The position numbers and the translations under genes were made by a program. 64,000 nt of DNA, taken from positions 1-64,000 of the forward strand of contig CAJWBH010000016.1 in assembly GCA_913019975.1 (NCBI GenBank), in the 5' to 3' direction. The notes under the pieces are model-generated. The model made no database searches and was not told the DNA's origin. It worked only from the letters and a program-made list of their open reading frames with translations. Source of the stretch: Thalassolituus maritimus. GTDB taxonomy: Bacteria; Pseudomonadota; Gammaproteobacteria; Pseudomonadales; Oceanobacteraceae. This document shows positions 3,831 to 16,480 of the stretch, piece after piece (position 1 is the first letter of the stretch; each line of letters starts with the position of its first letter).

Positions 3831-4271
3831 TTACCAGCTCTTGTATGGCAGGAATTTGCCATTCAGCGTGAGAAGAACACGGTCGCCTTTTGGGTCTTCG
3901 ATTTTGTCGACTTCCATGGAGAAGTCGATGGCGCTCATGATGCCGTCGCCAAACTTCTCCTGGATAACTTCTTTCAGCGTGTCACCGTAGACGCCCACAA
4001 TTTCGTAGAGTCGATAGATTAATGGATCAGTAGGGACAGCCTGATCCCATATTTTGGTTGGGTATGCTTCCAGCGCGGTGGCCATGCTTTGGTCAAATCC
4101 CAAATACTCTGCAATGGCCGCGGCCTTTTCGGCAGGGGCGCTGTTCATGCCCAGGCAGGCAGACGTCAGCCAGACAGGAGACATTCCAAGATCCGCCCCC
4201 ATTTGTTCCCACGTCAGTTCTTTCTCAATTTTGCGGGCGATAATCGCCTCAGTCATCGTTGCTTTATCCAT
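3831..4271 (-). CDS. cynS: Cyanate hydratase (cyanase)
   Basis: CynS converts cyanate and bicarbonate to ammonia and CO2 via carbamate, detoxifying cyanate or supplying nitrogen. The 146-residue protein has the N-terminal helix-turn-helix-like domain (about 1-75) and the catalytic C-terminal part. The conserved active-site residues are visible as R87 and E90 in PLIYRLYEIVG and S113 in DGIMSAID. The C-terminus GKFLPYKSW is typical. No cynR or cynT/carbonic anhydrase gene is adjacent. The gene is convergent with the acyl-CoA ligase, 9 bases apart, so it is transcribed on its own or from an undetected upstream promoter. Family and function are confident. Confidence 0.95.
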   Translation of the reverse strand: MDKATMTEAIIARKIEKELTWEQMGADLGMSPVWLTSACLGMNSAPAEKAAAIAEYLGFDQSMATALEAYPTKIWDQAVPTDPLIYRLYEIVGVYGDTLKEVIQEKFGDGIMSAIDFSMEVDKIEDPKGDRVLLTLNGKFLPYKSW

Positions 4272-6846: not shown

Positions 6847-7159
6847 ACTGACCCCCTGCTGGGCTTTTGGGGGTTCTGTGCCCCAAAATTGAACACTGCA
6901 GTCTGTTGCTTATGTGGTTGTCGCAGAATACTCACTGCATGGTGCACGATCGCGCGTGCCTCCCTGATAGCGGTTTGTTAATACTGACATTCAGTGTAGC
7001 AGTGCTGTAGCGGGTTGCCCGGGGTACGCATGGAGTGGCCTCTATTAGCCTCTATTAGCCTGATGGTGCCAATGTGGACAATGTGTTGGCCGGCCGGTTC
7101 GTCTATTGCTGTAGAGGTGATGAAGTGCCTGAATAGGTGCATAAAACTCGAGAATCACC
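6847..7159. other. Intergenic region upstream of the amidoligase cluster, with a tandem 10-mer
   Basis: No gene is seen in these 313 bases between divergent transcription units. The clearest structure is an exact tandem duplication of the 10-mer TCTATTAGCC at 7041-7050 and 7051-7060. The segment must hold promoters for the GGDEF-EAL gene and for the cluster at 7160. I see no convincing -35/-10 pair and no terminator. Confidence 0.5.
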
Positions 7160-7174
7160 GTGGAACGGTTCTGC

Positions 7175-8638
7175 ATGTCGATAAATTGGAAGCACTACGA
7201 ATTACAGGAGGGTTTCTACGATGAGCTGATCAGCTCGCCCGGAAACCCTAGAGTCCCCGCCCGGCAACTCGCCAACTATCTGAATAGCCTGACAGAAGAA
7301 GAAATACAGTCACGTAAGCTGGCCGCTGAGTCCACTATCAAAGATATGGGGGTTTCTTTCACCGTTTACAGTGAAGGTGAGAACATCGACCGCGCCTGGC
7401 CATTTGATATCGTGCCCCGGATCATATCGGCCCAGCAGTGGGAGAAAACAGCGGCGGGTCTGCGTCAGCGTCTGAAGGCGCTGAATATGTTTATTGATGA
7501 TCTGTACCATGAACAGAAGATCATTAAAGACGGCGTCATTCCTGAGTTTGTACTGAAACAGTCGAAGAACTATCGACCTGAGTGTGAGGGCGTTAATCCG
7601 CGCTTTGGTGTCTGGGCGCACATCTGTGGGACCGATCTTGTCCGCGATGGTGACGGCCAGTTTTATGTACTTGAGGACAACCTGCGGGTGCCTTCCGGCG
7701 TTTCTTACATGCTCGAGAACCGTTCCATTATGAAGCGGGTTCTGCCTGAGGTGTTTGAAAAAGTCAGTATCGCGCCGGTTGGTGATTATCCAGAAGCTCT
7801 CTTTAATATGCTGGCTTCTTTGTCGCCACGTCAGAGCTCCAGCCCGGTGGTCGTGGTTCTGACTCCAGGCATTTTTAATTCGGCGTACTTTGAACATGCC
7901 TTCCTGGCTCAACGCATGGGGGCTGAGTTGGTCGAAGGCAGCGACCTCGTCGTCGGTAAAGATGACTGCGTCTATATGAAGACAATCTCTGGTCTGGAGC
8001 GGGTTGATGTTATTTATCGCCGTATTGACGACATGTTCCTCGACCCTGAAGTGTTTCATCCTGAATCAGTACTGGGAGTCCCTGGACTGATGCGTGCATG
8101 GCGCAAGGGCAAAGTTGCTCTGGCAAATGCGCCGGGTGCAGGCGTCGCCGATGATAAAGTCGTGTATGCGTACGTACCCGATATCATTCGTTATTATCTG
8201 AGCGAAGAGCCTTTGATTCCGAATGTCGAAACTTACCTCTGCTACGACGACAAGCAGCGTGAATACGTGCTGGATAACCTCGATAAACTGGTCGTAAAAC
8301 CAGCTAACGAGTCTGGCGGTTACGGCATGCTGGTGGGCCCGCACAGTACTAAAAAAGAACGAGAACAATTTGCTGAGCTGATTCAAGCCAATCCGCGAAA
8401 TTATATTGCTCAGCCTACGTTGGCGTTATCAACAGCGCCAACACTTGTCGGGCGCAGTAAAGTCGAGCCCCGTCACCTCGACCTGAGACCCTTCATCCTT
8501 CAGGGCGAATCAAGTTACGTAACGACTGGCGGACTGACGCGGGTAGCGATGAAAAAAGGCTCTCTGGTAGTTAATTCATCGCAAGGTGGTGGTAGTAAAG
8601 ATACCTGGATTGTTGATACGTCTGCGGGGAAAGCCTGA
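7175..8638 (+). CDS. Circularly permuted ATP-grasp ligase, catalytic-looking copy
   Basis: The protein belongs to the circularly permuted type-2 ATP-grasp family (DUF404/DUF407), predicted to form amide or peptide bonds using ATP. Expected nucleotide and metal motifs are intact: [20 protein letters not shown] with acidic/Asn metal ligands, [13 protein letters not shown] with the glycine-rich loop, and LDLRPF near the C-terminus. ATG 7175 (MSINWKHYE) gives 487 residues; an in-frame GTG at 7160 adds five more, and neither has a strong ribosome site. Its TGA overlaps the next ATG by one base, so it heads the cluster. In other bacteria this family neighbours alpha-E, transglutaminase and sometimes the Anbu protease. 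The substrate is unknown. Confidence 0.9.
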
Positions 8639-9594
8639 TGTTATCGAAAGTTGCTGAACGGGTTTACTGGGCCGCCCGCTATCTTGAACGGGTAGAAAGC
8701 ACAGCCCGTATGTTGAGTATTTACGACACCCTGCTTTTCGACCTGCCGCGTCAGGTTAATCTGGGTTGGTATAACCTGATTGTAATTAACAGTCTTGAAC
8801 AGGATTTCAACGAGCGTTATTCGGTGCAGGATGAGCGTAACGTGGTGAAGTTTCTGGTCGGCGACGACACGAACCCCAGTTCTACAGTGACCTCGCTCAA
8901 AGCCATTCGTGAAAATATCCGTACCACGCGCGATGTTATCCCGGCGGATACCTGGGAGCTGGTGAATGAACTGAGCCAGTATGTTCAGGATCATCTGCAG
9001 CAGGGCATTAATCGTCGCGACCGACATGAATTTCTGGGCAATGTTATCAGTGCCTGTCAGCAGATTATTGGTCTGTGGCAGGTCAATATGCCGCGCGATA
9101 GCGCCTGGGAAATGCTCAAGCTTGGTCAGAATCTTGAACGTGCCGATATGACCACCCGGAATCTGGATGCCGCGACAGCGGCCATCATGCAGATCGAGGA
9201 CGATGATTTTGCTGTAAATAGCCAGCAGATTATCTGGGGAAATGTGCTGCGTTCTTTGAGTGCCGATCAGCCGTATCGTCGGGCGATGCGCAGTTCTGTT
9301 AAAGCGCCTCTGGTGTGCAGCTTTCTGCTGACAGACCCGCGTTTCCCGCGTTCTGTCGAGTATTGTCTCAACGACATGATTCAGGGTGTGAAGGCGTTGC
9401 CGCGTGCCGAAAAAATTATCGCGGATATCCGTAAGCTTCATAAGACTGTCACAGACCGTGCTGAGGATAGCGCTCCCGGCCCTGAAATGCGGGAAGCCCT
9501 GAACGATCTGCAGATTTCACTGCAGTATCTTCATTTTTCTATCAGTCGTACCTGGTTCCTGAATGATCAGGAACAACTGGCGGTGGCCCAATGA
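8638..9594 (+). CDS. Alpha-E domain protein
   Basis: This all-helical alpha-E family (DUF403) protein of 318 residues begins with the family's characteristic LSKVAERVYWAARYLERVE. It contains repeated helices with Glu/Arg pairs such as LKLGQNLERADMTTRNLD. Alpha-E has no proven activity. It is almost always encoded next to, or fused with, circularly permuted ATP-grasp proteins, and is thought to be their partner in the same pathway. The gene overlaps the ATP-grasp gene by one base (TGATG) and the following transglutaminase gene by four bases (ATGA), so translation is very likely coupled. The same pairing recurs as a fusion at 13068. Confidence 0.92.
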   Translation: MLSKVAERVYWAARYLERVESTARMLSIYDTLLFDLPRQVNLGWYNLIVINSLEQDFNERYSVQDERNVVKFLVGDDTNPSSTVTSLKAIRENIRTTRDVIPADTWELVNELSQYVQDHLQQGINRRDRHEFLGNVISACQQIIGLWQVNMPRDSAWEMLKLGQNLERADMTTRNLDAATAAIMQIEDDDFAVNSQQIIWGNVLRSLSADQPYRRAMRSSVKAPLVCSFLLTDPRFPRSVEYCLNDMIQGVKALPRAEKIIADIRKLHKTVTDRAEDSAPGPEMREALNDLQISLQYLHFSISRTWFLNDQEQLAVAQ

Positions 9595-12500
9595 CAATTA
9601 CAGTCGCACTTAATCATAAAACCCGGTATGACTTTGATCGCCCGGTGTCATTATCTCCGCACGTGGTGCGTTTGCGTCCGGCACCTCACTGCCGCACACC
9701 TATCCGCTCATACAGTCTGAAAATAGAGCCGGAAGAGCACTTTATTAACTGGCAGCAAGACCCGTACGGTAACTTTCAGGCGCGACTCGTTTTTCCTGAA
9801 AAAAGTCGCTGCTTATCGGTAGAGGTTGAAGTAATCGCCGATATGACGGTGATCAACCCGTTCGACTTTTTTATTGAAGAGTACGCTGAGGAATTTCCGT
9901 TCAAATACGGAAAGAGCCTGAAGAAAGAGCTGGAACCCTACCTGCATTGCACCACCGAAGGTGAAATGTTCACCACGCTGCTGGAAAGTATTCCGCGTGA
10001 GAAAAAGCGTACCATCGATTTTCTTGTCGATATCAATATGCGATTGCAGCAGGACATCGATTATCTGGTGCGCATGGAACCGGGCGTTCAGACGCCGGAA
10101 GAAACACTGGAAAAAGGCAAAGGTTCTTGTCGGGATTCTGCCTGGTTGATGGTGCAGTTACTGCGTCACCTGGGGCTGGCCGCCCGTTTTGCGTCTGGCT
10201 ATCTGGTTCAGCTCAAATCCGATGAGAAATCTCTCGACGGTCCTTCTGGCCCTGAAGCTGACTTCACCGACCTGCATGCCTGGTGCGAAGTCTATCTGCC
10301 GGGTGCTGGATGGGTGGGGCTCGACCCGACCTCTGGGCTATTTGCATCCGAGGGGCATATCCCACTTGCCTGCACGCCAGAGCCGAGCTCTGCAGCGCCA
10401 ATTTCTGGCTTCACTGATGAGTGTGAAGTCGAGTTTACTTTCTCAAACGAAGTCACTCGTTTCCATGAAGACCCACGGGTGACCAAGCCGTATACCGAGT
10501 CAGAATGGGAAGACGCGCTGGCATTGGGCGAGAAAGTCGATCGTATTCTGAAAGATGAAGACGTCCGTCTGACAATGGGCGGCGAGCCAACGTTTGTATC
10601 TGTCGATGACATGGAATCCGCGCAGTGGAATACCGAAGCGCTGGGCAAAGACAAACTGGCATTAGCGAAAACCCTGTTGCTCCGTCTGCGAGACCACTTT
10701 GCACCGAAAGGCCTGCTGCATTATGGCCAGGGCAAGTGGTATCCGGGAGAAGAAGTACCGCGCTGGGCGTTAGGTTTATTCTGGCGTACCGATGGCGAAC
10801 CTTTATGGCAGGACAAAGACCTGCTTGCCCGCGTAGATAAACATTACGGACACACCGAGGAAGACGCACGGGCATTTGCCCGACGGCTTGCAGAGTTACT
10901 GAACGTTCCGCAGCGTTGTGCTCAACCTGCGTATGAAGATGGACTGCATTATCTGCTGCAGGAGCAGAATTTACCGGAAAATATTGATAGCCGGATTGCC
11001 AGCAGCAAAGACAGCCTTGAGCGCCGTCGACTGGCACGGGTGTTAGAGCAGGGGCTGGACACCCCGACCGGGTACGTACTGCCGCTTGAGTGGAATTTCT
11101 ACGGACATTGCTGGCAGTCCAGCGAGTGGCAGTTCCGCCGCGGGCGTCTGACTCTGATCCCGGGCGATTCGCCGATGGGGCTTCGTCTGCCGCTGGAGAG
11201 TCTGCCACCTGCGGAAGAAGATCCTCTGATTCAGGAGACTGACCCGCACCGCGAAGCCGGACCTCTGGAAACCGCCGATGCCGCAGTAAAAGAGGCTCTG
11301 GCACGTAACAGTCGCCCGGTAGCTCAGTCGCAACCGCTTACACCGACATCATCGACGCCTCCGGTGCAGAAACAGAGCGCTCAGAAGAAGGTCGAGGGCA
11401 ACGAGAAGACTGAGTCTGCGGCGAAGAAAGACGATTATCGCTGGAAAAATCTGGTGCGTACGGCACTGGGCATTGAAGCCCGCGACGGTAAGTTACACTT
11501 GTTTCTTCCGCCGCTGCCTTACCTCGAAAGCTACGTGAATCTGCTGGCGCTGATAGAGCGGACAGCAATGGAGCTGGATCTACCTGTCATTATTGAGGGC
11601 TATGAGCCGCCGAAAGACCATCGCATGCAAAAGCTGTTGGTGACTCCTGATCCGGGCGTGATCGAGGTGAATATTCACCCGTCAGACAACTGGTCCGACA
11701 TGGTCAGCAACATGACTGAGTTATATCAGGCTGCCAAAGAAAGCCGCCTGAGTACTGAGAAATTCATGTTGGATGGTCGTCACACGGGAACCGGAGGTGG
11801 CAATCACATTACCTTGGGTGGTGCGACGCCTTCGGACAGCCCATTTTTGCGACGGCCTGATCTCTTGCGTAGCTTCGTTACCTTCTGGCAGAACCATCCG
11901 TCGTTGTCGTATTTGTTTTCTGGCGCCTTTATTGGCCCGACCAGTCAGGCACCCCGAGTCGATGAGGGCCGCGATGAAGCTCTGTATGAATTGGAAATTG
12001 CTTTTCAGCAGATGCCTGACGGGGACGTCGCACAGCCCTGGTTGGTTGATCGCCTGTTACGTAATCTACTGATTGATATGACGGGTAACACGCACCGAGC
12101 AGAATTCTGTATTGATAAACTGTTCGCACCGGGCAGTCCGTCCGGGCGACTGGGCATTCTCGAATTCCGTGGATTTGAAATGCCGCCGCATAGCCGTATG
12201 GCACTGGTTCAGGCGCTTCTGCTTCGTGCTCTGGTCGTACGGTTCTGGCGGAAGCCCTACAAGCAGAAGCTTGAGCGCTGGGGTACTCGTCTGCACGATC
12301 AGTTTATGCTGCCGCACTATATCTGGCAGGACATTAAAGATGTGGCGGCCGATCTGCAGGAGCATGGTCTGGATTTCCGTGCTGAATGGTTACTGCCTTT
12401 CCGTGAATTCCGCTTCCCTCACTATGGCACGGTGAATCTCGGGGATATGTCACTTGAATTGAGCTGGGCTATTGAGCCATGGAATGTACTTGGTGAAGAA

Positions 12501-13025
12501 GTCTCCAGCTTTGGTACCGCGCGCTACGTCGATTCTTCTGTAGAGCGTTTGCAGGTTCGCGTTACCGGCATGACTGGCAGCCGCTATATTCTGGCTTGTA
12601 ACGGACGTAAGGTGCCGCTGCGGGCCACCGGTAAACATGGTGAGTTTGTAGCAGGTGTGCGTTACAAAGCCTGGGCGCCACCTTCGGCACTGCATCCGAC
12701 CATTGATGTTCATGTTCCCCTGCATTTCGATCTGATCGACACCTGGAACGGGCGCTCGGTGGGTGGAGCGACCTATCATGTGTCTCATCCGGGTGGGCGC
12801 AGCTATGACGTATTCCCAGTGAATGCTGCTGAAGCCGAGTCCCGCCGTGGCAATCGTTTCACCACGACAGATCACACACAGGGGCCTTATACGCCTCGCC
12901 CTGAGATTGATGCCATGCGCGAATTTACTGCGCATACAGATGTCAGGCCGATGAGTGCCCCGGCGGAAGAGTCGTATGATGAGTATCCTCTGACGCTGGA
13001 TCTCAGAACTCAGCCTAAACGCTGA
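9591..13025 (+). CDS. Giant transglutaminase-like protein with DUF2126 amidoligase domain
   Basis: The 1144-residue protein joins two enzymes. Residues 1-90 form the bacterial transglutaminase N-terminal beta domain. A transglutaminase/protease-fold core follows with the full triad: Cys180 (GSCRD), His229 (DLHAW) and Asp245 (DPTSG). From about residue 325 (RLTMGGEPTFV) to about 1090 lies DUF2126, a predicted glutamine-synthetase-like amidoligase domain, with motifs GGGNHITLGG and LGILEFRGFEMPPHSR. A Ser/Thr/Pro/Lys/Glu-rich stretch near 570-610 may be a flexible insert. The protein may both cleave and form amide bonds on an unknown peptide or protein. It overlaps the alpha-E gene by four bases. 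No signal peptide is seen, so it is probably cytosolic. Confidence 0.92.
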   Translation: MTITVALNHKTRYDFDRPVSLSPHVVRLRPAPHCRTPIRSYSLKIEPEEHFINWQQDPYGNFQARLVFPEKSRCLSVEVEVIADMTVINPFDFFIEEYAEEFPFKYGKSLKKELEPYLHCTTEGEMFTTLLESIPREKKRTIDFLVDINMRLQQDIDYLVRMEPGVQTPEETLEKGKGSCRDSAWLMVQLLRHLGLAARFASGYLVQLKSDEKSLDGPSGPEADFTDLHAWCEVYLPGAGWVGLDPTSGLFASEGHIPLACTPEPSSAAPISGFTDECEVEFTFSNEVTRFHEDPRVTKPYTESEWEDALALGEKVDRILKDEDVRLTMGGEPTFVSVDDMESAQWNTEALGKDKLALAKTLLLRLRDHFAPKGLLHYGQGKWYPGEEVPRWALGLFWRTDGEPLWQDKDLLARVDKHYGHTEEDARAFARRLAELLNVPQRCAQPAYEDGLHYLLQEQNLPENIDSRIASSKDSLERRRLARVLEQGLDTPTGYVLPLEWNFYGHCWQSSEWQFRRGRLTLIPGDSPMGLRLPLESLPPAEEDPLIQETDPHREAGPLETADAAVKEALARNSRPVAQSQPLTPTSSTPPVQKQSAQKKVEGNEKTESAAKKDDYRWKNLVRTALGIEARDGKLHLFLPPLPYLESYVNLLALIERTAMELDLPVIIEGYEPPKDHRMQKLLVTPDPGVIEVNIHPSDNWSDMVSNMTELYQAAKESRLSTEKFMLDGRHTGTGGGNHITLGGATPSDSPFLRRPDLLRSFVTFWQNHPSLSYLFSGAFIGPTSQAPRVDEGRDEALYELEIAFQQMPDGDVAQPWLVDRLLRNLLIDMTGNTHRAEFCIDKLFAPGSPSGRLGILEFRGFEMPPHSRMALVQALLLRALVVRFWRKPYKQKLERWGTRLHDQFMLPHYIWQDIKDVAADLQEHGLDFRAEWLLPFREFRFPHYGTVNLGDMSLELSWAIEPWNVLGEEVSSFGTARYVDSSVERLQVRVTGMTGSRYILACNGRKVPLRATGKHGEFVAGVRYKAWAPPSALHPTIDVHVPLHFDLIDTWNGRSVGGATYHVSHPGGRSYDVFPVNAAEAESRRGNRFTTTDHTQGPYTPRPEIDAMREFTAHTDVRPMSAPAEESYDEYPLTLDLRTQPKR

Positions 13026-13067
13026 GAATCTGCCATAATTGCGGCCAGATAACCTGAGATAGCCAAT

Positions 13068-15602
13068 ATGACTGATGAGTCAGCCATCACGCCGACTGCC
13101 GAAGACCTGTATCCACCGCTGCAACGCAGCGGTGATGCTGTTTACGATGCCGCCGGTACCATGCATCCGCACTGGAATTATGTCATGGAGAGCCTGGCAG
13201 GAATGCCGGGCAGCGTCCTGCATGACCGTCAGGCTAAGGCCCGTCGCTTGTTGCGTGACGACGGCGCGACGTACAACATCTACAGTGACAATTTCCGCGA
13301 TAAGCAGAACGACTCCCGTACCTGGGGGCTAGATCTTATTCCTAATGTCATCAGCAGTGATGACTGGGCAGCCATTGAAAGTGGGCTGGTTGAGCGTGCG
13401 GAGCTGCTGAATCTATTATTGCGGGACATTTACGGCCCACGCCAACTGATACGCACTGGCGTTATCCCTCCTGAAATCATTTACGCGAATCGCGGTTTTC
13501 TGCGCGCCTGTCAGGGGCTGCGTATGCCCGGCGAGCATGATCTCATTATTCACGCTGCTGATATGGCCCGTGGCCCAGACGGTAAAATGATGGTGCTTGC
13601 GGACAGAACTCAGAGCCCGAGTGGCGCAGGTTACGCGCTCGAAAATCGTACGGTGATGTCGCGTGTCTTGCCGAGCTTATTCCGCGATAGTCACGTTCAT
13701 CGCCTGGCCGGCTACTTCCGCCAGTTGCGTAGCAAAATGCAGAGCCTGTGCCCTCACAGACCCTCGCCTCGTATCGCGGTGTTGACCCCTGGCCCTCGTA
13801 ATGAAACCTATTTTGAACACGCCTATCTGGCGAATTACCTCGGGTTTTATCTGGTTCAGAGTGATGACCTGGTCGTTCGTGGTGGATTTCTCTGGATGAA
13901 ATCGCTGGATGGTCTCAGCCGGGTCGATGTACTTATGCGTCGCGTTGATGACTGGTTCTGTGATCCGGTAGAACTGCGCGGTGATTCCCGCCTCGGTGTG
14001 CCCGGTCTGCTGCAGGTGGTCAGGGCTGGCAACCTGGTGGTGGCCAACTCTCTGGGCTCGGGCATTCTTGAAAGTCCAGCGCTGCTGAAATATCTCCCGG
14101 ACATCGGTCGCGCGCTACTTGGGCGTGAGCCTCGCCTCAACAGCGTGCAGACATGGTGGTGTGGTGATCCTACTGACATGACCTATGTTCTGGATAACCT
14201 GGCGAAGCTGGTGGTGAAACCTACGTATCGTAAACCCGGCGAACTCAGCTTCTTTGGGCCTAAAGCCAGCGCTGAAGAGCTGGCTAATATGGCCGCCCGG
14301 ATTAAAAGTGATCCCCAGCGCTATGTTGGCCAACCTGTACTGGAGTCCAGCTTCTTACCGACTCTGCAGAATAATGTGTTGGCACCGCGGCCAGCGATAC
14401 TCCGGGCCTTCACGGTTGCGGGTACCGGGTCATACAGTGTTATGCCGGGCGGTCTTACCCGGGTTGGGCTCAAAGAAGATGCGCTGCTGATCTCTGGTCA
14501 GGCGGGTGCGACCAGCAAAGATACCTGGGTGGTAGCTTCCGAGCCCGAGCGCATCGTTACCAATCAGCACGAAGATGTTGCGCCTGCGCGGGAAAGTGAA
14601 GCGACCAACCTACCTAGCCGCGTGCTTGAGAACCTGTTCTGGATGGGGCGCTACGCTGAGCGTGCAGAAGCCTGTCTGCGTCTGTTGCGAACTGCGTACT
14701 CCATGCTTAACGGTGAAGATCCTCTGTCGTCAGATCTGCGCCTGACGTTACTGAAGGCCGTGACTGAGTTGGCGACTATTGCGCCTATGAAAACGCCGGA
14801 GAGCGATGAGGCAATGATTGAAGCTCTGCGCCGCGGAGAAGCGCCGCAGTCGATTGCGAATACCCTCAACAGCATGCTTTTCTGTGCCGATGAAGCCAAA
14901 GAGCTGCTGTCCTCTGATACCTACCGGGTAATCAATGACATACGCGATGCGATTCCGCTGCTGGATGGCGATGAGCAGGATGCCTACCTTAGCCCTGATG
15001 AAGTACTCGACCCTCTGGTCACAGCATTAATGGCCTTGGCGGGCCTGACTCACGAGAGCATGACCCGCGGTTACGGTTGGCGCTTTATGGAATTGGGCCG
15101 TCGAATCGAACGAGCCATGCAGACTGGGCGGCTCGCAGGCACCTTGCTTGGTCCTGAGATGATGGAACCAGAGCAGTCGCGCATAGCCGAAGCTTTATTG
15201 CTCACACTCGAAGGCCTGATTACTTATCGTCGCCGCTATGGTGCTCGTCCTGATCTGCGTAGCGGCCTTGATCTGGTTCTGCTGGATACAGATAACCCAC
15301 GTTCGGTGATGTATCAGCTCGGCAATATATTGCGCCAGTTGCGTAAGCTTCCAAGTCATGCGGGGTATCTGCATGAGCTGCCGCCTGCTGAGAAAGCACT
15401 GATCGAATGCAGTACGCGCGTACGCTTGTTTACGCTCTCTGAATTGTCTGCAAGTACGGAAGGTGAGCGTAAAGTGCTGATTGAAGAGATGCAGACTCTG
15501 GATAACGCCCTGATGGACATCAGCGATATGATCGGCGATCGCTACTTTGATCACAGAGAAGACTCGCAACAGCTGGTCGATGCTCGCTGGGAGGGACTGT
15601 AA
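13068..15602 (+). CDS. Fused circularly permuted ATP-grasp / alpha-E protein, divergent ATP site
   Basis: Residues about 1-490 are a second circularly permuted ATP-grasp domain and about 510-844 an alpha-E domain (LPSRVLENLFWMGRYAERAE). The fusion therefore repeats the two separate genes at 7175 and 8638 in one chain. The ATP-grasp half has lost key residues. The metal-binding VLEDN of the first copy reads VLADR here, and the glycine-rich [10 protein letters not shown] reads KPTYRKPGEL. It may thus be a regulatory or scaffolding pseudo-ligase. It starts 42 bases after the large transglutaminase gene, with an AGATAG site before ATG 13068. Its TAA overlaps the next ATG by one base. Domain assignment is firm; loss of catalysis is an inference. 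Confidence 0.9.
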   Translation: MTDESAITPTAEDLYPPLQRSGDAVYDAAGTMHPHWNYVMESLAGMPGSVLHDRQAKARRLLRDDGATYNIYSDNFRDKQNDSRTWGLDLIPNVISSDDWAAIESGLVERAELLNLLLRDIYGPRQLIRTGVIPPEIIYANRGFLRACQGLRMPGEHDLIIHAADMARGPDGKMMVLADRTQSPSGAGYALENRTVMSRVLPSLFRDSHVHRLAGYFRQLRSKMQSLCPHRPSPRIAVLTPGPRNETYFEHAYLANYLGFYLVQSDDLVVRGGFLWMKSLDGLSRVDVLMRRVDDWFCDPVELRGDSRLGVPGLLQVVRAGNLVVANSLGSGILESPALLKYLPDIGRALLGREPRLNSVQTWWCGDPTDMTYVLDNLAKLVVKPTYRKPGELSFFGPKASAEELANMAARIKSDPQRYVGQPVLESSFLPTLQNNVLAPRPAILRAFTVAGTGSYSVMPGGLTRVGLKEDALLISGQAGATSKDTWVVASEPERIVTNQHEDVAPARESEATNLPSRVLENLFWMGRYAERAEACLRLLRTAYSMLNGEDPLSSDLRLTLLKAVTELATIAPMKTPESDEAMIEALRRGEAPQSIANTLNSMLFCADEAKELLSSDTYRVINDIRDAIPLLDGDEQDAYLSPDEVLDPLVTALMALAGLTHESMTRGYGWRFMELGRRIERAMQTGRLAGTLLGPEMMEPEQSRIAEALLLTLEGLITYRRRYGARPDLRSGLDLVLLDTDNPRSVMYQLGNILRQLRKLPSHAGYLHELPPAEKALIECSTRVRLFTLSELSASTEGERKVLIEEMQTLDNALMDISDMIGDRYFDHREDSQQLVDARWEGL

Positions 15603-16480
15603 TGAAGTACCTGATTAAACATATTACCGCCTACAAATACGCCAGCCGGGTCTCTCATTGCTATAACCTGGCACAGATGATCCCGCGCACGACTCAGCGT
15701 CAGACCTGCATCAACAGCAAGATAGAAGTCACCCCGGAACTGGCCATGGAGCAGCGCCGGGAAGATTATTTCGGCAATCAGGTGTTTCAGTTTGAAATTC
15801 AGCGGCCACACAAAGCCCTGACGATCACCGCCACCAGTCAGGTTGAAACGCGTCCTCAGATTGCAGACACCAATCTCGATCTTGGTAGCACCTGCGCGGA
15901 AGTGCTAAGCAAAATGCAGCAGTCGAAGTCGGAAGATGTACTGCTCGCGCGGGAATACCAGCTGGACTCATCCATGATTGCGGCGGCACCCGAGTTCCGC
16001 GATTACGCGGCGGACCTGTTTACCGCTGATCGTTCTCTGTTATCGGCGTGCTTTGCTCTGACTGCTCGAATCTACGAAGAGTTCAGCTATTCGCCGCTGG
16101 CGACAACCATTGCGACACCTCTGTCCGAAGTTATGCAGAACAAAAAAGGGGTGTGTCAGGATTTTGCTCACCTGCAGATCGCCTGTCTGCGCTCTCTGGG
16201 GTTTGCTGCCAAGTACGTTTCCGGGTACCTCGAAACATTGCCACCACCGGGTCAGGAAAAGTTAGTGGGTGCCGATGCAACGCATGCGTGGTTATCGGTA
16301 TTCTCGCCGGGTGAGGGCTGGGTAGAATTTGATCCGACGAACAATTGCCTTGCTGGAGAGCAACATATCATCACTGCCTGGGGCCGTGACTTTAACGATG
16401 TAACACCGCTGAAAGGTGTGATCTTTGGTGGGGGCTCAGCGCCTGAAATGACAGTCTCTGTGGATGTGAGTCGGGTCTGA
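15602..16480 (+). CDS. Transglutaminase-like cysteine protease-fold protein
   Basis: The 292-residue protein has the bacterial transglutaminase N-terminal beta domain (about 1-90) and a transglutaminase-like core. The triad is complete: Cys185 (KGVCQDFAH), His228 (ATHAWLSV) and Asp244 (EFDPTNN). Members of this class usually act as peptidases or amidases, not as cross-linkers. No signal peptide is present. The start codon overlaps the stop of the ATP-grasp/alpha-E fusion by one base, so it belongs to the same operon. It pairs with that fusion as the large transglutaminase pairs with the first ATP-grasp and alpha-E genes. It is the last clear member of the cluster. Confidence 0.92.
   Translation: MKYLIKHITAYKYASRVSHCYNLAQMIPRTTQRQTCINSKIEVTPELAMEQRREDYFGNQVFQFEIQRPHKALTITATSQVETRPQIADTNLDLGSTCAEVLSKMQQSKSEDVLLAREYQLDSSMIAAAPEFRDYAADLFTADRSLLSACFALTARIYEEFSYSPLATTIATPLSEVMQNKKGVCQDFAHLQIACLRSLGFAAKYVSGYLETLPPPGQEKLVGADATHAWLSVFSPGEGWVEFDPTNNCLAGEQHIITAWGRDFNDVTPLKGVIFGGGSAPEMTVSVDVSRV

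Follow-up and report, generated by a model that had tools for sequence, protein, structure and literature searches.

A five-gene ATP-grasp, Alpha-E and transglutaminase cluster of Thalassolituus maritimus with an apparently inactive second ATP-grasp

Background

Does the cluster of five genes at positions 7160-16480 of contig 16 of Thalassolituus maritimus encode two parallel sets of the same enzymes, or the parts of one pathway? The window, that is the whole 64,000 nt stretch of this contig analysed here, comes from a genome of 3.49 Mb which is 99.9% complete. A first-pass annotation of the window had read the cluster as a single operon with two sets of the same functions back to back. We find that the two apparent sets do not duplicate each other: of the two similar ATP-using enzymes, one is without its catalytic residues in the relatives that were compared.

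The five open reading frames all lie on the + strand:

7160..8638, + strand: AG1, separate circularly permuted (CP) ATP-grasp protein (Pfam CP_ATPgrasp_2, 5.7e-169; 3n6x_A, E 4.3e-165)
8638..9594, + strand: AE1, separate Alpha-E protein (Pfam Alpha-E, 5.5e-74); 1-base overlap with AG1
9591..13025, + strand: TG-DUF2126, fusion of a transglutaminase-like domain and DUF2126 (Pfam Bact_transglu_N, Transglut_core and DUF2126, E printed as 0); 4-base overlap with AE1
13068..15602, + strand: AG2-AE2 fusion (Pfam CP_ATPgrasp_2, 2.1e-153, and Alpha-E, 1.5e-68); 42-base gap 5' of the gene
15602..16480, + strand: TG2, second transglutaminase-like protein (Pfam Bact_transglu_N and Transglut_core); 1-base overlap with AG2-AE2

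The Pfam matches are far over the cut-offs and far beyond chance, and for all five proteins they agree with the gene identities of the first-pass annotation. The coordinates also uphold its operon-like packing on one strand; the gene overlaps of 1-4 bases that it described are found at three junctions (1, 4 and 1), but not between the third and fourth genes, where the 42-base gap lies. Judged by the N-termini of relatives (e.g. MSIDWNDY...), AG1 likely starts at the ATG at 7175 and not at the GTG at 7160.

Results and discussion

Two ATP-grasp proteins, one of them degenerate

AG1 and AG2 are the only CP-ATP-grasp family matches in the whole genome. AG1 matches the glutathionylspermidine/glutathione synthetase fold (3n6x, 2io7, 2hgs) by sequence, with the E value for 3n6x listed above, and it keeps D159, E172, N174, D331-D332-K333, K380, GGYG at 386-389 and D441. 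This catalytic residue set, Asp/Glu/Asn included, was kept in all 110 AG1 sequences compared. D159, E172 and N174 look like D318, E330 and N332 of E. coli GspS, and we take the Asp/Glu/Asn positions of the permuted ATP-grasp to be metal ligands, as in GspS. On its residues AG1 is predicted to be a catalytically active ATP-grasp.

AG2 is alike by predicted fold, as its predicted structure falls in the same synthetase fold, but it is without the Asp/Glu/Asn motif. At the positions equivalent to the catalytic ones of AG1 it has D165, A178, R180, S336, P337 and I444, and the complete Asp/Glu/Asn set was found in 0 of 103 AG2 sequences as against 110 of 110 for AG1. AG2 looks dead; it appears to be an ATP-grasp pseudo-ligase whose catalytic residues are missing from the relatives compared. 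The Pfam text of PF04174 already describes inactive forms, frequently joined to Alpha-E, and names a fusion of transglutaminase and ligase domain. In the separate Alpha-E protein, AE1, the Glu-Arg motifs are conserved among relatives.

The first-pass annotation had called both transglutaminase triads complete, and so they are: C180/H229/D245 of TG-DUF2126 was kept in 126/126 sequences, and Cys-His-Asp, in TG2 C185/H228/D244, in 120/121. The ATP-grasp and transglutaminase folds on which that annotation had staked its view are present in the predicted structures. The DUF2126 half of the large protein (approximately residues 277-1144) appears to be a ligase-type domain in its own right, for which a glutamine-synthetase fold is predicted. 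Its H739, E858 and R860 are invariant in 54 alignment rows and resemble motifs of glutamine synthetase, which makes them candidates for an ATP and metal site. Relatives of the large protein occur in several phyla.

Distribution among genomes

The ATP-grasp family was matched in 107 of 369 genomes drawn from the whole class and in 71 of 145 drawn from the order. With four genomes set aside because their matches were fragmentary or weak, the order draw has AG1 in 67 genomes and AG2 in 44; DUF2126 occurs in 36 and the protease Anbu in 33 of the 145. AG1 was present in all 44 genomes with an assignable AG2, and AG2 in all 36 genomes with DUF2126. The distance between AG1 and AG2 was below 10 kb in 36 of the 44, with varying gene orders. 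In the class draw, read by hand, 30 genomes carried a fused-length AG2, and in all of them another match was counted as AG1; in one genome this presumed AG1 is partial and lies at a contig end. Five genomes of one family (G382, G421, G453, G481 and G507; 1.6-2.2 Mb) carry AG1 and a lower-scoring AG2 without DUF2126.

The gene order of the window is conserved and not specific to the source genome. It was seen in 32 of 138 de-duplicated loci holding DUF2126 or AG2 (the window itself counted, extra weakly matching transglutaminase genes ignored), which is not a population frequency, as the loci were selected for holding these genes and those at contig ends were scored as lacking genes. Named examples are Marinobacterium, Marinomonas, Halioglobus, Aestuariicella and Desulforhopalus, along with a Planctomycetaceae metagenome-assembled genome (MAG), a Burkholderia and a Rhodocyclaceae MAG.

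Taken literally, the wording of the first-pass annotation means two redundant parallel pathways, both active. The similar domain content of the two sets and the two intact transglutaminase triads fit this, but AG2 is without the metal-ligand set in 103/103 sequences, it never occurs without AG1 (44/44 assignable genomes), and the second set has no counterpart of DUF2126. The claim of two sets with the same functions is not supported, and we regard parallel pathways as scarcely credible.

A single pathway

On the strength of the domains identified, the residues lost from AG2, the folds predicted, the joint occurrence of the genes and the enriched promoter sites in relatives, we suggest one pathway, presumably cytoplasmic, for making and trimming a compound that is peptide-like or isopeptide-linked, with AG2-AE2 as a non-catalytic partner and not as part of a parallel pathway. 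We give this reading about an even chance. AG1 would use ATP and acyl-phosphate chemistry to form amide bonds, and a second ATP-dependent amide ligase would be the DUF2126 domain, which is glutamine-synthetase-like. The two Cys-His-Asp enzymes would act on amide bonds, either in the product or in an acceptor protein, by hydrolysis or by transfer. The non-catalytic paralogue AG2-AE2 may assist AG1, the DUF2126 enzyme or both, as a partner or a scaffold, and Alpha-E, a helical domain, may aid assembly. NtrC and sigma-54 would turn the system on under nitrogen limitation in relatives, and nitrogen control may act in the source organism as well.

Promoter sequences and nitrogen control

A sigma-54-like element (score at least 0.85) was detected before 49 of 97 operons starting with AG1 and 29 of 88 starting with TG-DUF2126, as against 25 of 820 control genes; after de-duplication the counts were 46/91 and 28/84. 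At native spacing it was found in 74 of 175 regions, compared with 2-6 of 175 at altered spacing, and the reverse strand of the upstream regions gave 13/191. Where the modules start separately, both were preceded by the element in 10 of 33 loci of relatives. NtrC-like palindromes were present in 30 of 176 upstream regions versus 19 of 731, and were enriched only at the correct spacing, four other spacings giving 2-4 of 176.

Excerpts of published studies agree with this. In Burkholderia cenocepacia BCAM1233-1236 depend on NtrC and sigma-54, and when ntrC is mutated the DUF404/407, DUF403 and two transglutaminase-like genes show log2 changes of -6.0 to -9.4. PP_2685-2688 of Pseudomonas putida were raised under nitrogen limitation or on nitrate, and relatives were co-regulated with urea and nitrate scavenging genes. 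The source genome carries a sigma-54 gene, and upstream of the window operon there is one candidate:

7094..7111, + strand: sigma-54-like -24/-12 candidate CCGGTTCGTCTATTGCTG; score 0.81 of 1, shuffle p 0.12, weak

It ends approximately 50 bases 5' of the GTG at 7160. The upstream neighbours of the cluster are a GGDEF-EAL gene and, beyond it, a cyanate lyase gene (3831-4271, - strand), another possible nitrogen-scavenging gene. Downstream lie genes for an argininosuccinate-lyase-type lyase, a histidine kinase, a response regulator and a porphobilinogen deaminase.

Nitrogen control would also suit a catabolic salvage system, in which the cluster would release nitrogen during starvation by activating and opening amide-rich peptides or storage material, while the ligases recapture intermediates. 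The enriched NtrC and sigma-54 sites in relatives, the published co-regulation with urea and nitrate scavenging genes, at least in the excerpts, and the cyanate lyase gene, some 3 kb 5' of the cluster, are consistent with it. However, the two ligase-type domains point to synthesis, Pfam finds no transporter among the five cluster proteins, and the window promoter is without clear sites. We consider salvage unlikely.

The single pathway with its nitrogen control has to face several observations that weigh against it. DUF2126 is missing from 8 of the 44 AG2 genomes, which speaks against strict unity, and none of 16 operons starting with AG2 has a sigma-54-like element at the same score. The weak window candidate is the same in one near-identical congener and not conserved in the other, and no NtrC-like site was found upstream of the window operon (best 8 of 12). 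According to the published excerpts, the P. putida operon genes are listed as raised in all strains analysed, an rpoN mutant included, a reporter with the PP_2685 promoter fragment did not respond to nitrogen, and a pull-down with the Yersinia bercovieri operon proteins gave no specific interaction.

Anbu and the exchange of modules

The absence of Anbu from the window, noted in the first-pass annotation, is confirmed and extends to the whole 99.9%-complete genome: the Anbu profile gave no match, and the single proteasome-family match is an HslV-like gene adjoining an HslU-like gene. Among the 67 AG1 genomes, Anbu was found in 10 of 44 with AG2 (one of the ten, G384, rests on a weak Anbu match) and in 20 of 23 without (p 4.7e-7), a statistic that treats kindred genomes as separate samples, which they are not. 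When all 145 genomes are taken together, AG2 and Anbu were independent (p 1.0). Nor is the exclusion absolute, as Anbu adjoins the five-gene cluster in G372 and G498. An in-frame stop interrupts 3 of the 10 Anbu matches of AG2 genomes (G392 contig 1, G396 contig 27 and G435 contig 69), and Anbu decay in AG2 genomes is only a hint from these sequences.

The six loci that supplied the Anbu seeds have ATP-grasp proteins scoring 509-545 bits against the window AG1, and most cluster loci score at least 650. The split is not clean, since L066 (550) and L135 (532) carry AG2 and L078, L085 and L088, which lie in Anbu genomes, score 696-793. One congener (G468) has a lone open Anbu gene on contig 2 (L222:9334-10047) and the five-gene cluster on another contig; the second congener, like the source genome, has no Anbu match.

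For the Anbu operon protein tagging has been proposed in print, as far as the excerpt goes. Here AG1 and DUF2126 would attach a peptide or amino acid tag which the transglutaminase-like enzymes, and Anbu in genomes that have it, would remove or transfer, a ubiquitin-like cycle without ubiquitin. Ligase-type and amidase-type domains do adjoin (Pfam), and in G372 and G498 Anbu stands next to the cluster, but the source genome is without Anbu and Anbu is rarer in AG1 genomes that have AG2 (10/44 versus 20/23). Tagging seems improbable to us for this cluster.

Further, we speculate that AG1 and Alpha-E form a shared ligase core that takes up one of two alternative modules. One would consist of Anbu and a small transglutaminase, the other of TG-DUF2126, the conserved dead ATP-grasp and a second transglutaminase. 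In the latter module the dead ATP-grasp would be indispensable, as activator or as scaffold, and this module would displace Anbu. The extension is doubtful; among the 20 Anbu genomes that lack AG2, G456 (contig 125) also has an Anbu match split over two frames. The fused ATP-grasp that looks dead in all relatives compared, its companionship with AG1 and its tendency to replace Anbu amount to a testable design of core ligase and exchangeable partner, probably under nitrogen-stress control, and Anbu, a proposed ancestor of the proteasome, belongs to a sister version of the system.

Comparison with known systems

The cluster belongs to a known kind of system, as all four components of the CP-ATP-grasp/Alpha-E/transglutaminase/DUF2126 amidoligase system are encoded together. 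Such amidoligase neighbourhoods were proposed by Iyer, Abhiman, Burroughs and Aravind in 2009; as the proposal is cited by other papers, domains and neighbourhood are alike and nothing essential differs, and the link drawn by the first-pass annotation is borne out to that extent.

The published excerpts allow comparison with three operons. The Anbu operon (Y. bercovieri; P. putida PP_2685-2688) shares the ATP-grasp, Alpha-E and a transglutaminase-like protein, whereas the source genome is without Anbu and has the extra DUF2126 and ATP-grasp/Alpha-E fusion; for the Yersinia relative only phosphate release from ATP is reported in the excerpt. BCAM1233-1236 of B. cenocepacia encode DUF404/407 (ATP-grasp), DUF403 (Alpha-E) and a small and a large transglutaminase-like protein; the table covers these four genes, and we infer that the large protein is TG-DUF2126. 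The rlo operon of Pseudomonas aeruginosa likewise combines an ATP-grasp and a transglutaminase-type protein, but in our cluster both triads are complete and Pfam gives no aspartic-protease match in the five proteins. To what is known of these systems the present study adds residue-level evidence that the two sets are not parallel, counts of how AG2 accompanies AG1 and tends to replace Anbu, and statistics on the promoters.
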